Of a DNA stretch of 64,000 nt, positions 26,465-41,969 are shown piece by piece. Source of the stretch: Methanococcoides burtonii DSM 6242 (GTDB taxonomy: Archaea > Halobacteriota > Methanosarcinia > Methanosarcinales > Methanosarcinaceae); contig NC_007955.1 in the NCBI RefSeq assembly GCF_000013725.1, positions 2,015,579 through 2,079,578 on the forward strand. The letters run 5' to 3'. Under the pieces are notes generated by a model, which was given only the letters and a program-made list of their open reading frames with translations, had not been told where the DNA came from and did no database searches. Numbering within the stretch: position 1 is the first letter of the stretch; each line of letters opens with the position of its first letter. The position numbers were made by a program, and so were the translations under genes.

Positions 26465-26950
26465 ATGGCAAGTGTTGTAGAAGCATTAATTCCTGGCGGT
26501 AAAGCAAATCCCGGTCCTCCACTGGGCCCTGCGCTGGGACCTCTTGGTGTTAATATTAAAGACGTGATCGAAAAGATCAATGAAAAGACAAAAGATTACA
26601 ATGGGATGCAGGTTCCTGTTAAGGTTATCGTTAATGACGATAAGAGTGTTGAGATCGAAGTGGGTACTCCACCAACATCCGCATTAATCCTTAAGGAACT
26701 TAACATCGAAAAGGGCTCCGGTGAGTCCGGTACTGTTGTTGTTGGTAATCTTGAGATCGCACAGGTCGCAAAGATCGCACGTATGAAGAAAGATGATATC
26801 CTTTCCTATTCGCTTAAGGCTGCAATCAAAGAAGTCATGGGAACCTGTGTTCCTATGGGTGTAACGATTGAAAACCTTGACCCAAGGGAATGCCAGAAAG
26901 CTGTTGATGAGGGCAAGTTCGACGAGTCTCTCACAGCAGAAGCATGGTAA
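26465..26950 (+). CDS. rpl11: large ribosomal subunit protein L11 (uL11)
   Basis: 161 residues. N-terminal [19 protein letters not shown] is the factor-binding signature; the C-terminal domain binds the GTPase centre of 23S rRNA. The ATG is preceded by AAAGGTGT. Own TATA candidate TTATAAATG lies near 26403. Followed by a hairpin that may separate it from L1. Confidence 0.97.
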
Positions 26951-26952
26951 TT

Positions 26953-26974
26953 AAAGAGATATTACTATCTCTTT
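26953..26974 (+). terminator. hairpin directly after L11
   Basis: AAAGAGAT and ATCTCTTT form a perfect 8-bp stem with a 6-base loop, three bases past the L11 stop. There is no T-run, so it could be a processing or attenuation element rather than a terminator. Confidence 0.45.
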
Positions 26975-27025
26975 GATAATATATCAAATTCAAACTGGTT
27001 GGTCAGTCTTCTTGGTTGACCGACA

Positions 27026-27055
27026 AGTTTTAAACAGATGCTTCAATATTGAAGC
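27026..27055 (+). promoter_or_regulatory. probable L1 operon promoter with 16-bp palindrome
   Basis: A TATA-like AGTTTTAAAC (27026-27035) is followed by the perfect palindrome GCTTCAATATTGAAGC (27040-27055). Spacing would put the transcription start near 27057, immediately before the structured leader. Confidence 0.45.
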
Positions 27056-27087
27056 TTCGTAATTGAGATGAAAGTCTCCTTACTTTA

Positions 27088-27194
27088 CCGTAGTAGGCCG
27101 GAGCGGCCGCAGAGGCAGGTATGCAATTATTGTATGCCTGCCGGATGCAGATGCTATCTGTGTCAGAACATATGTTCAATAACTACGGGGAGGA
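27088..27194 (+). promoter_or_regulatory. structured leader RNA of the L1-L10-L12 operon
   Basis: A 7-bp helix CCGTAGT (27088-27094) with ACTACGG (27182-27188) closes a domain of about 100 nt. Inside are four consecutive hairpins: GGCCG-GAG-CGGCC (27096-27108), an 11-bp stem GGCAGGTATGC/GTATGCCTGCC with two G-U pairs (27114-27142), CAGAT-GCT-ATCTG (27148-27160) and GAAC-ATAT-GTTC (27166-27177). The 3' arm of the closing helix runs into the ribosome-binding site GGGGAGG before ATG 27200. Archaeal L1 is known to repress its own operon by binding its mRNA; this domain is the natural candidate, but I could not match it to the known L1 site motif. Confidence 0.6.
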
Positions 27195-27199
27195 ATAGA

Positions 27200-27841
27200 A
27201 TGGTAGAAGAAACTACTTTAGATCTAGTAAAACAGTTAATTGAAGGTTCCCCGGAACGTAAGTTTTCCGAGAGCTTAGACATTGCAATTAACTTAAAGAA
27301 TCTCGATATGAGTCAGCCTAAGAATCGTGTGGATGAGGAGATAATCCTTCCTAACGGGCTTGGTAAGACCATGAAGATCGCTGTTTTTGCAAAGGGTGAG
27401 GTTGGACTCAACGCAAAGGACGCTGGTTGTGACTATATCCTTACAGAAGAGGATATCAAGGAGCTCGGCGAGGATAAATCAAAGGCAAGAAGTCTCGCAA
27501 ACGAGTGTGATTTCTTTATCGCAGAAGTCCAGTATATGGCTCAGATCGGTAAAGCCCTTGGTGCTATTCTTGGTCCTCGCGGAAAGATGCCAGTGCCATT
27601 GACCCCTGATAAGAACGTCGCTGATCTTATCAACAGCACAAAGAACTCGGTACGTATACGGTCAAAGGATAAATTGACCTTCCACGTGTCAGTTGGTCGC
27701 AGGGACATGGATGTCGAGAAACTTGCAGAGAACATCGAAACAGTTCTTGGTAGGTTAGAACATTCTCTTGAGAAAGGTAAACACAACCTTAAATCAGTTT
27801 ATGTTACAACTACTATGGGTAATTCTGTGAGGTTGGTATAA
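27200..27841 (+). CDS. rpl1: large ribosomal subunit protein L1 (uL1)
   Basis: 213 residues, standard archaeal length, with LGPRGKMPVPLTPDKNV and the terminal KSVYVTTTMG typical of L1. It binds the mobile L1 stalk of 23S rRNA and in methanogens represses its own mRNA. The open frame extends to 27068, but ATG 27200 has GGGGAGG upstream and matches the family N-terminus; the upstream part is the structured leader. The stop overlaps the L10 start by one base (TAATG). Confidence 0.96.
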   Translation: MVEETTLDLVKQLIEGSPERKFSESLDIAINLKNLDMSQPKNRVDEEIILPNGLGKTMKIAVFAKGEVGLNAKDAGCDYILTEEDIKELGEDKSKARSLANECDFFIAEVQYMAQIGKALGAILGPRGKMPVPLTPDKNVADLINSTKNSVRIRSKDKLTFHVSVGRRDMDVEKLAENIETVLGRLEHSLEKGKHNLKSVYVTTTMGNSVRLV

Positions 27842-30416: not shown

Positions 30417-31985
30417 TTATTCTCTCTTCCTTTGAACACCTGTCCTTTTCTTAAAACCGGTGCGTGCTTTGTCGCCGCTGCTGCCGCCACTGCTACGGTC
30501 GCTGCTTCTTCCGCCGCTGCTTCCACCACTGCTACGGTCGCTGCTTCTTCCGCCGCTGCTTCCACCACTGCTACGGTCGCTGCTTCTTCCGCCGCTGCTT
30601 CCACCACTGCTACGGTCGCTGCTTCTTCCGCCGCTGCTTCCACCACTGCTACGGTCGCTGCTTCTTCCGCCGCTGCTTCCACCACTGCTACGGTCGCTGC
30701 TTCTTCCGCCGCTGCTTCCACCACTGCTACGGTCGCTGCTTCTTCCGCCGCTGCTGCCACCACTGCTTCTTCCGCCATAGGCACTTTTGCGGTCTTCTCT
30801 TCTGCCACCCTTGCGGTCTTCTCTTCTGCCACGGGTAGGTCTTCCGCCACTGTCTTCACTTTTGATGAGCACCCTTTCGAATTCCGGTAAGTCTTCCCGC
30901 TCGATCTTGAAATTGCGGTGCATTTTAGAGAGCCTGGTAAAGCCGCCCTTATCCACATCTGCGACCACATTGATGACCTTTCCTTCTCTTCCAGCTCTTG
31001 CTGTTCTTCCTATCCTGTGAACATATTCACTGGGGTCATCAGGGATGTCGAAATTGTAAACATGTGACACATGAGGAATATCCAGTCCTCTGGCAGCTAC
31101 ATCGGTGCACACAAGTGCATGTGCATTGCTGGAATGGAATTTGCTCAGTGTGCTCTTTCTCTTTGCCTGCGTATGTCCGCCATGAATAGCTATTGCATCA
31201 ATGTCGTTCTTTCTCAGGTTCTTTTGTACGAAATCAACATTGCTTCTCGTATTACAGAATACCATAACAAGTCCTGATTTTTCACTCTTCAGGAGATGTA
31301 CAAGAAGTGAGAACTTCATCTTCTTAGGGACGTCAATATATACCTGCTTTAGTTTATCTGAATCAACATATGCCTTCGCAAATACCTTTGAAGGATTATT
31401 CATGTATTTGCTTGAGAGGTACTGGATGTCTTTGGAAACAGTTGCTGAGAACATCATTGTCTGTCTGTCAGAAGGACATTCGTCGATGATCTCTTCAACA
31501 TCATCAATGAATCCCATGTCAAGCATTCTGTCCGCTTCATCAAGGACCAGAATCTCAACATCTCCGAGGTCGATTGTTCCTCTTTCAATATGGTCTAATA
31601 ATCTTCCTGGGGTTGCAACAACAACATCTGCTCTTTCCAGTTGGCGAATCTGTGGGTTGATAGCTACACCGCCGTATATTGGTGCTACTCTCAATTGTTT
31701 ATGTCTGGAAAATTCCTTTAATGAGTTCTGAACCTGCTCAGCCAACTCTCTTGTTGGTGTAAGGACCAGTGCTCTAATTCCATTTCCTTTTTCTATCTTC
31801 TGGATGATTCCGCATCCAAATGCGAGCGTCTTACCTGATCCGGTAGCGGCTCCACCTATTATGTCTTTTCCTTCAAGGATTAGAGGAATAGCCATTTTCT
31901 GAATTTCAGTAGGCTCTTCAAATTTCTTGTCCTCTATCGATCTTAAGATCGCATCCTCGATACCTAATTTTTTGAATGATTCCAT
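30417..31985 (-). CDS. deaD: DEAD-box RNA helicase with seven 13-residue C-terminal repeats
   Basis: 522 residues. Q motif near residue 27, motif I AATGSGKT, Ia PTRELAEQ, II DEAD (LDEADRMLDMGF), III SAT, V ARGLDIPH and VI HRIGRTAR are all present within the first 360 residues. A basic linker with GRREDRKGGRREDR is followed by seven copies of SSGGSSGGRSSDR and a basic end FKKRTGVQRKRE. The tail should bind RNA, like RGG tails. M. burtonii deaD, described as cold-induced with seven perfect 13-residue repeats, has just this design. It likely unwinds cold-stabilised RNA structures. Confidence 0.97.
   Translation of the reverse strand: MESFKKLGIEDAILRSIEDKKFEEPTEIQKMAIPLILEGKDIIGGAATGSGKTLAFGCGIIQKIEKGNGIRALVLTPTRELAEQVQNSLKEFSRHKQLRVAPIYGGVAINPQIRQLERADVVVATPGRLLDHIERGTIDLGDVEILVLDEADRMLDMGFIDDVEEIIDECPSDRQTMMFSATVSKDIQYLSSKYMNNPSKVFAKAYVDSDKLKQVYIDVPKKMKFSLLVHLLKSEKSGLVMVFCNTRSNVDFVQKNLRKNDIDAIAIHGGHTQAKRKSTLSKFHSSNAHALVCTDVAARGLDIPHVSHVYNFDIPDDPSEYVHRIGRTARAGREGKVINVVADVDKGGFTRLSKMHRNFKIEREDLPEFERVLIKSEDSGGRPTRGRREDRKGGRREDRKSAYGGRSSGGSSGGRSSDRSSGGSSGGRSSDRSSGGSSGGRSSDRSSGGSSGGRSSDRSSGGSSGGRSSDRSSGGSSGGRSSDRSSGGSSGGRSSDRSSGGSSGDKARTGFKKRTGVQRKRE
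30477..30749 (-). repeat. seven tandem 39-bp repeats inside deaD
   Basis: Seven head-to-tail units of 39 bp with no spacers, six of them identical and the one nearest the gene end slightly diverged at its edge. Each encodes SSGGSSGGRSSDR. All frames on both strands remain open across the array, which creates long false Ala- and Leu-rich reading frames. Confidence 0.95.
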
Positions 31986-41897: not shown

Positions 41898-41969
41898 GTC
41901 CTGGTAGGGTAGAGGATATCCTTGGGGCTTGCGGAGCCTTAGACCCGAGTTCGATTCTCGGTCGGGACG
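41898..41969 (+). tRNA. tRNA-Arg (anticodon GCG)
   Basis: 72 nt fold as a cloverleaf: acceptor GTCCTGG with TCGGGAC plus discriminator G, D arm with GG in the loop, anticodon stem GGGGC/GCCTT around loop TTGCGGA (anticodon GCG, purine 37 is G as usual for Arg tRNAs), T arm CCGAG-TTCGATT-CTCGG. No CCA is encoded and no intron is present. A TATA box GTTTATATTA at 41859-41868 lies at the right distance upstream. It reads CGC and CGU codons. Confidence 0.93.

Follow-up and report, generated by a model that had tools for sequence, protein, structure and literature searches.

A predicted uL1 operator with three additional hairpins in the L1 leader of Methanococcoides burtonii

Introduction

The 64,000-nucleotide stretch of Methanococcoides burtonii DSM 6242 analyzed here (NC_007955.1, positions 2,015,579 to 2,079,578; hereafter the window) contains the gene series ftsZ, secE, nusG, L11, L1, L10, and L12, in names that we presume from sequence and family resemblance (L11, L10, and L12 included). 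The window also holds a DEAD-box helicase gene (30417-31985, minus strand), whose product carries many near-identical GGSSGGRSSDRSS repeats in a C-terminal tail. Between the end of L11 (26950) and the start of L1 (27200), the initial annotation noticed a multi-branched leader RNA at the ribosome-binding site of L1, the folding of which could switch translation of L1-L10-L12, and suggested that it may be an RNA element distinct from the known L1 site. The locus thus raises the question of whether this RNA is a new kind of element or a form of the uL1 operator. According to the review PMC10931766, uL1 binds helices H76-H78 of 23S rRNA and, in both Bacteria and Archaea, acts as the repressor of the operon that encodes it, via mRNA sites that mimic the rRNA site, the mRNA operator being worded there as an irregular stem-loop with an internal bulge.

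Results

The features of the locus are presented in Table 1. The 7-bp closing helix P1, which encloses four consecutive hairpins as originally proposed, was recovered in the minimum-energy fold, where P1 to P5 form a predicted five-way junction; the longest hairpin (27114-27142) has 13 bp instead of the 11 bp first given. The helix had been described as abutting the Shine-Dalgarno sequence GGGGAGG. The contact is there, but it is rather an overlap, with Gs 27187-27188 being both the last two bases of P1 and the first two of GGGGAGG. The fold of 27060-27230 has an energy of -63.8 kcal/mol (z -5.54) and that of the element alone (L001:1389-1494) an energy of -51.8 kcal/mol (z -6.96), and in both cases 0 of 200 shuffled sequences folded as well.

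Table 1. Genes and leader features at the L1 locus, in window coordinates
Feature	Position	Strand	Basis or remark
L11 (uL11) gene	26465..26950	+	ORF; upstream neighbor of L1
Promoter-like ACCGACAAG-TTTTAAA (BRE/TATA) for the L1-L10-L12 transcript	27019..27034	+	Similar element in relatives
Small hairpin GAGAU-GAAA-GUCUC, upstream of the element	27065..27079	+	Fold; similar hairpin in other Methanococcoides leaders
P1 5' strand, closing helix, CCGUAGU	27088..27094	+	Fold and conservation
UAG, matching N-A-G in the internal loop of the L1 site; pairs possible for U27094 with A27182 and for G27096 with C27108	27094..27096	+	Comparison
P2, first hairpin (5 bp); with P1, the presumed uL1-binding core	27096..27108	+	Fold and comparison
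P3, 13-bp hairpin of the clade-specific insertion	27114..27142	+	Fold and five-way alignment
P4, 9-bp hairpin of the clade-specific insertion	27144..27164	+	Fold and compensatory changes
P5, hairpin GAAC-AUAU-GUUC (4 bp)	27166..27177	+	Fold and alignment
P1 3' strand, ACUACGG; first A is the conserved A	27182..27188	+	Fold and conservation
Shine-Dalgarno GGGGAGGA, overlapping the end of P1	27187..27194	+	Complementary to CCUCC at the 16S 3' end (GGATCACCTCCT)
L1 (uL1) gene	27200..27841	+	ORF
L10 gene	27841..28854	+	ORF; same operon as L1
L12 gene	28899..29201	+	ORF; same operon as L1

With the leader cut at the expected transcript start, the closing helix and four hairpins persisted in predictions at 23 and 4°C, with P4 rearranged. 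The predicted pairing probability of P1 exceeded 0.98 at 4, 23, and 37°C, and no temperature switch of P1 was predicted between 4 and 37°C. Since the fold predicted without uL1 leaves the Shine-Dalgarno sequence only partly paired (mean unpaired probability 0.25-0.31), P1 alone may not switch translation. A small hairpin, GUAG-AAGAAA-CUAC, was predicted in the first L1 codons (27203-27217), and its arms could also pair with the P1 strands; it may be an alternative partner of these strands or only the codons for VEETT.

Of 91 unique loci, 80 have a BRE/TATA-like element ahead of the core, compared with 41 of 1,820 shuffled upstream stretches. The pattern was drawn up by hand with the sequences already seen, and the element ended at least 30 nt upstream of P1 in 79 of the 80 loci having both. 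In the accessible part of a study on Methanolobus psychrophilus, transcripts start about 19-22 nt downstream of the promoter element, and the leaders of ribosomal protein mRNAs are mostly long, with an average of 165 nt (PMC5378194). Given the promoter-like element in the window and this spacing, the L1 message would start, by analogy, at approximately 27054-27060, placing the whole element inside the transcript. A start downstream of 27094 had been named as evidence against the structure; the predicted one lies upstream of the element.

Two further repeats surround this promoter. An inverted repeat, TTGGTCAG...TTGACCGA, overlaps its BRE (26998-27026) and has similar arms in other Methanococcoides leaders; it may mark where the L11 transcript ends or serve as an operator. 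A palindrome, GCTTCAATATTGAAGC, lies between the TATA element and the expected start (27040-27055), where different but still inverted arms occur in ANME-3 (GCTCTTCTATTGAAGAGC) and Methanomethylovorans (TGCTCCACGTTGGGAGCA). It was dropped as a conserved feature, inverted repeats at this place being mostly at the level of shuffled sequences.

Conservation was assessed for a core defined as the closing helix, N-A-G, the first hairpin, C-G, a variable stretch, A, and the closing strand. Searching 60 related genomes with L1 gave matches in 58, from which 50 loci were taken and 8 were not. The core stands directly before L1 in all 49 untruncated loci of this set from the order (L016 is cut off), as CCGUAG-N-A-R ... 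CUACGG 8-12 nt upstream of the gene, three of them having UCGUAG...CUACGA. In an overlapping set of 80 named loci, it precedes L1 in all 79 that are untruncated (L074 is cut off), 75 of which were found by the strict pattern and 4 by eye among its misses. The named records nearest to the window by L1 are Methanococcoides strains, with 96-97% identity. L106 and L123 have CUGUAG, giving a G-U pair in P1; in L112 and L115 the core is present and the L1 match starts only with residue 7, which made the stretch searched end within the gene. The order-level search pattern partly demanded letter identity in P1; still, no untruncated locus was found without the helix. The absence of conservation in Methanolobus and Methanosarcina had been put forward as grounds for rejection, and the core is kept in both. 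In 79 of 91 unique loci, the seven bases beginning at the first G common to P1 and the Shine-Dalgarno sequence are GGGAGGA, GGGAGGT, or GGGGAGG. A second plain core elsewhere in the genome was sought with CCGTAGNAGN{8,38}ACTACGG, for which the window's own copy is too long, and 0 matches were obtained.

Across the phylum, 55 loci out of 119 L1 matches were analyzed, and the core was found before L1 in 44 of them with G-U pairs allowed; with the same pattern, none of the 55 reverse complements and 31 of 2,750 mononucleotide shuffles matched. The core was absent before L1 in the remaining 11 loci (L159, L164, L165, L172, and L185-L191; families f10, f12, f15, and f27). Control of L1 in these four families lies perhaps in the coding region.

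Both core helices show compensatory change, as expected of a uL1 mRNA operator. P1 in the 44 phylum loci reads CCGUAG/CUACGG (24 loci), CCAUAG/CUAUGG (12), UCGUAG/CUACGG (7), or UCGUAG/CUACGA (1), the second being a true two-sided change. Among 129 unique cores, the first pair of P2 is AU in 67, GC in 45, GU in 10, and CG in 7. The pair at the base of P2, formed by the third loop base with the base after P2, is G-C in 88, A-U in 17, G-U in 14, and other in 10, several of the latter being visible cases of the script misplacing the end of the helix, as it does in some rows. The base following this pair is G in 102 of 129 cores. All 129 have an A immediately ahead of the closing strand, a letter demanded by the phylum pattern and left free by the two order-level patterns. 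The leader structure at the L1 ribosome-binding site is thus conserved and covarying, and the compensatory changes in the closing helix named at the outset as support for it are present.

The layout of the core recurs in rRNA. The organism's own 23S rRNA reads GGUAG-GAG-AC...GU-CGCAAUUGGGACA-CUACC and that of E. coli GGUGG-GAG-GC...GC-CGACCUUGAAAUA-CCACC, with GUAG at position 2170 of the former aligning with E. coli 2121. Folded by itself, the 23S stretch gives no convincing structure (z -1.13), and its structure was therefore taken from the E. coli alignment. The layout is also present in the rplK leader of E. coli, GGG-GAG-CCUCUCAGAGG-CGUUAUUA-CCC, as read by eye, the four-pair minimum of the script having missed the site. 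The core is an irregular stem-loop with an internal bulge, plain in relatives; in the window, one bulge strand extends to approximately 72 nt and holds three hairpins. By its position in the DNA, the element lies in the uL1 operon, at the translation start. Because this layout is common to the organism's own 23S rRNA, E. coli 23S rRNA, and the rplK leader, and uL1 represses its own operon via rRNA-mimicking sites (PMC10931766), we identify P1-P2 as the probable uL1 operator. The proposal of an element distinct from the known L1 site does not hold for this part: the closing helix and first hairpin, with the same N-A-G / C-G...A loop, are that site.

What sets the window apart is the length inside the core, which is 89 nt here and 14-45 nt in most relatives, with a range of 17-178 nt within the order. 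P3-P5 form an insertion into one (3') strand of the internal loop. They come after the conserved C-G and before the conserved A, and thus the bases shared with rRNA stay in place. Methanococcoides and the ANME-3 lineage are the only groups in which this five-way form was found, and the same fold was predicted independently for the ANME-3 loci L017, L022, and L070, the letters of which are quite different. In an alignment of 16 five-way sequences, 96.6% of 447 cells pair, compared with 29-43% in slid controls, and the covariation score was reached by 0 of 500 shuffles. Six of 28 pairs change on both sides, all in P3, P4, and P5, a count that leaves out inner P3, where the two groups do not align; two-sided changes of the kind looked for in the 27114-27142 stem thus occur in P3-P5. 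P1 and part of P2 are invariant in Methanococcoides and ANME-3, and their covariation support comes from the wider sets. The Methanosarcinaceae form of L012 and L059 (78 nt inside, another fold) was left out of this alignment. In P3-P5, the letters show little conservation in loops and stems alike.

A covariance model of the five-way form (R1) found 17 of 111 family genomes and 2 of 14 genera, with one place each; the model was built from the two genera that it then found, so these counts speak for restriction and copy number rather than for independent discovery. Fourteen of the 17 places were compared with the L1 matches and lie 10-12 nt from them. In a tree built from 80 L1 proteins, the five-way form is a single clade (support 98/93); each of the other length classes requires 2 to 5 changes. 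Middle-length forms have a hairpin in the strand after P2 (51 loci, mean -3.9 versus -1.3 kcal/mol for shuffled sequences). A second hairpin at the place of P5 also occurs in Methanolobus, Methanosarcina, and ANME-2, and in the first two it is GAAC...GUUC or close to it, like P5. Because the middle-length forms hold this P5-like hairpin, the plain core probably gained P5 first and then, in a single lineage, P3 and P4, and some losses followed (e.g., Methanohalophilus, 23 nt).

Other insertions were seen as well. Methanimicrococcus and near relatives (L030, L035, L096, and L098) carry long insertions of their own, with 67-178 nt inside the same core, unlike those of Methanococcoides, and L139 of the phylum set has 35 nt with a second hairpin, perhaps an independent lengthening. 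A mobile or repeated origin of the Methanococcoides insertion was rejected, 27105-27182 being without a second full copy in the genome and other matches spanning 14-22 bases. Imitation of rRNA by the insert was also rejected, the longest word common to the insert and the rRNA locus being 9 (shuffled mean 9.2). Rfam 15 gave only chance-level matches in 26940-27400, at gathering thresholds and with E-values up to 10. A tRNA-like or cloverleaf RNA was discarded as well, since cmscan of the whole window gave a tRNA only at 41898-41969.

Discussion

Based on structure, conservation, covariation, likeness to rRNA, and overlap with the Shine-Dalgarno sequence, we propose, with a probability of roughly 0.87, that uL1 controls translation of its own L1-L10-L12 operon autogenously through this element, an operator elaborated in one clade; uL1 binding and repression are read here from sequence comparison. 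P1, the N-A-G/C-G...A internal loop, and P2 would imitate the uL1 site of 23S rRNA (H76-H78). In excess of free rRNA, uL1 would bind the P1-P2 core and clamp P1, hiding the Shine-Dalgarno sequence; 30S binding would then be blocked, because P1 and the Shine-Dalgarno sequence have two Gs in common. New rRNA would draw uL1 away, and translation would resume. The P3-P5 hairpins are most likely a peripheral domain, first tolerated and then maintained, that would shape or stabilize the core rather than act as a separate sensor.

Strong hairpins do arise by chance in leaders, but the z-scores of -5.5 and -7.0, the covariation, and the conservation make a chance structure without function hardly credible. 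A riboswitch or other separate RNA element with no connection to L1 binding would fit the lack of Rfam 15 family matches and a layout more branched than a hairpin. Against it, both the sequence and the structure of the core are those of the L1 site, as seen in the 23S rRNA of this organism and in the leader of E. coli, and the core stands before L1 through the phylum without P3-P5; we consider this reading very improbable.

The remaining alternatives concern P3-P5 alone. Within the operator explanation, these hairpins could serve solely to protect the mRNA at its 5' end or to insulate that end, through nuclease resistance or cotranscriptional folding of the core, and leave regulation to the core. 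The single-copy insertion, its variable length across the order, and the strong local hairpins agree with such a role, whereas the short forms do without P3-P5, and we hold it as a tentative possibility. A second functional domain is unlikely: here P1-P2 would bind uL1, and P3-P5 would respond to another ligand (e.g., the L10-L12 complex) or fold in a temperature-dependent manner, so that two signals are integrated. The fold of P3-P5 is kept in a single clade with two-sided changes in six pairs, and Methanococcoides and ANME-3 both inhabit the cold sea floor, as this reading would have it. However, the letters of P3-P5 vary in a manner unlike a ligand pocket, the insert shares no longer word with the rRNA locus than shuffled sequences do, P1 is predicted to stay closed from 4 to 37°C, and most relatives lack P3-P5. 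The bolder claim that the Methanococcoides/ANME-3 operator is a two-domain five-way-junction regulator, in which the added hairpins sense another ribosomal protein complex or cold, appears quite unlikely. A structural or protective role of P3-P5 is likelier than a second sensor.

The kind of element is thus already known as the uL1 operator, and its elaboration into a five-way junction is new as far as we have seen; no account of the L1 leader in Methanosarcinales was found in the open-licence literature searched. The locus offers a natural series of one regulatory RNA at one gene, in which the closing helix encloses anything from a hairpin within 14 nt to a five-way junction. Since both the host protein and its site on rRNA are known, the series could be used to test how an RNA that binds a protein accommodates inserted helices and perhaps exploits them. 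Few cis-regulatory RNAs have been proved in archaea, and the results suggest an Rfam family spanning the phylum.

Among known systems, the archaeal r-leaders of Eckert and Weinberg 2020 are likewise cis-acting leader structures of ribosomal protein genes; those named in the accessible part of the paper belong to L4, eL15, and S15, with none for L1 (PMC7247131). The E. coli rplK-rplA leader, read by eye as GGG-GAG-CCUC..GAGG-CGUUAUUA-CCC, is the same module, but its site precedes L11, with a short closing helix and a loop without further hairpins. H76-H78 of the organism's own 23S rRNA share GUAG-GAG-AC...GU-CG...A-CUAC, the window having UAG where the rRNA has GAG. In contrast to the leader with its short P2 and structured strand of ~72 nt, the rRNA has a long H77/H78 arm and a loop strand of 13 nt. 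Another counterpart is the archaeal uL1 operator, reportedly known from Methanococcus vannielii and relatives. Like the element in the window, it belongs to the mRNA of the L1-L10-L12 operon and mimics the L1 site of 23S rRNA with two helices and an asymmetric internal loop. The site in Archaeoglobus and haloarchaea is said to lie in the leader, as in the window, whereas that of M. vannielii is reportedly inside the L1 coding region; the window's site overlaps the Shine-Dalgarno sequence and carries three extra hairpins in one strand of its loop.
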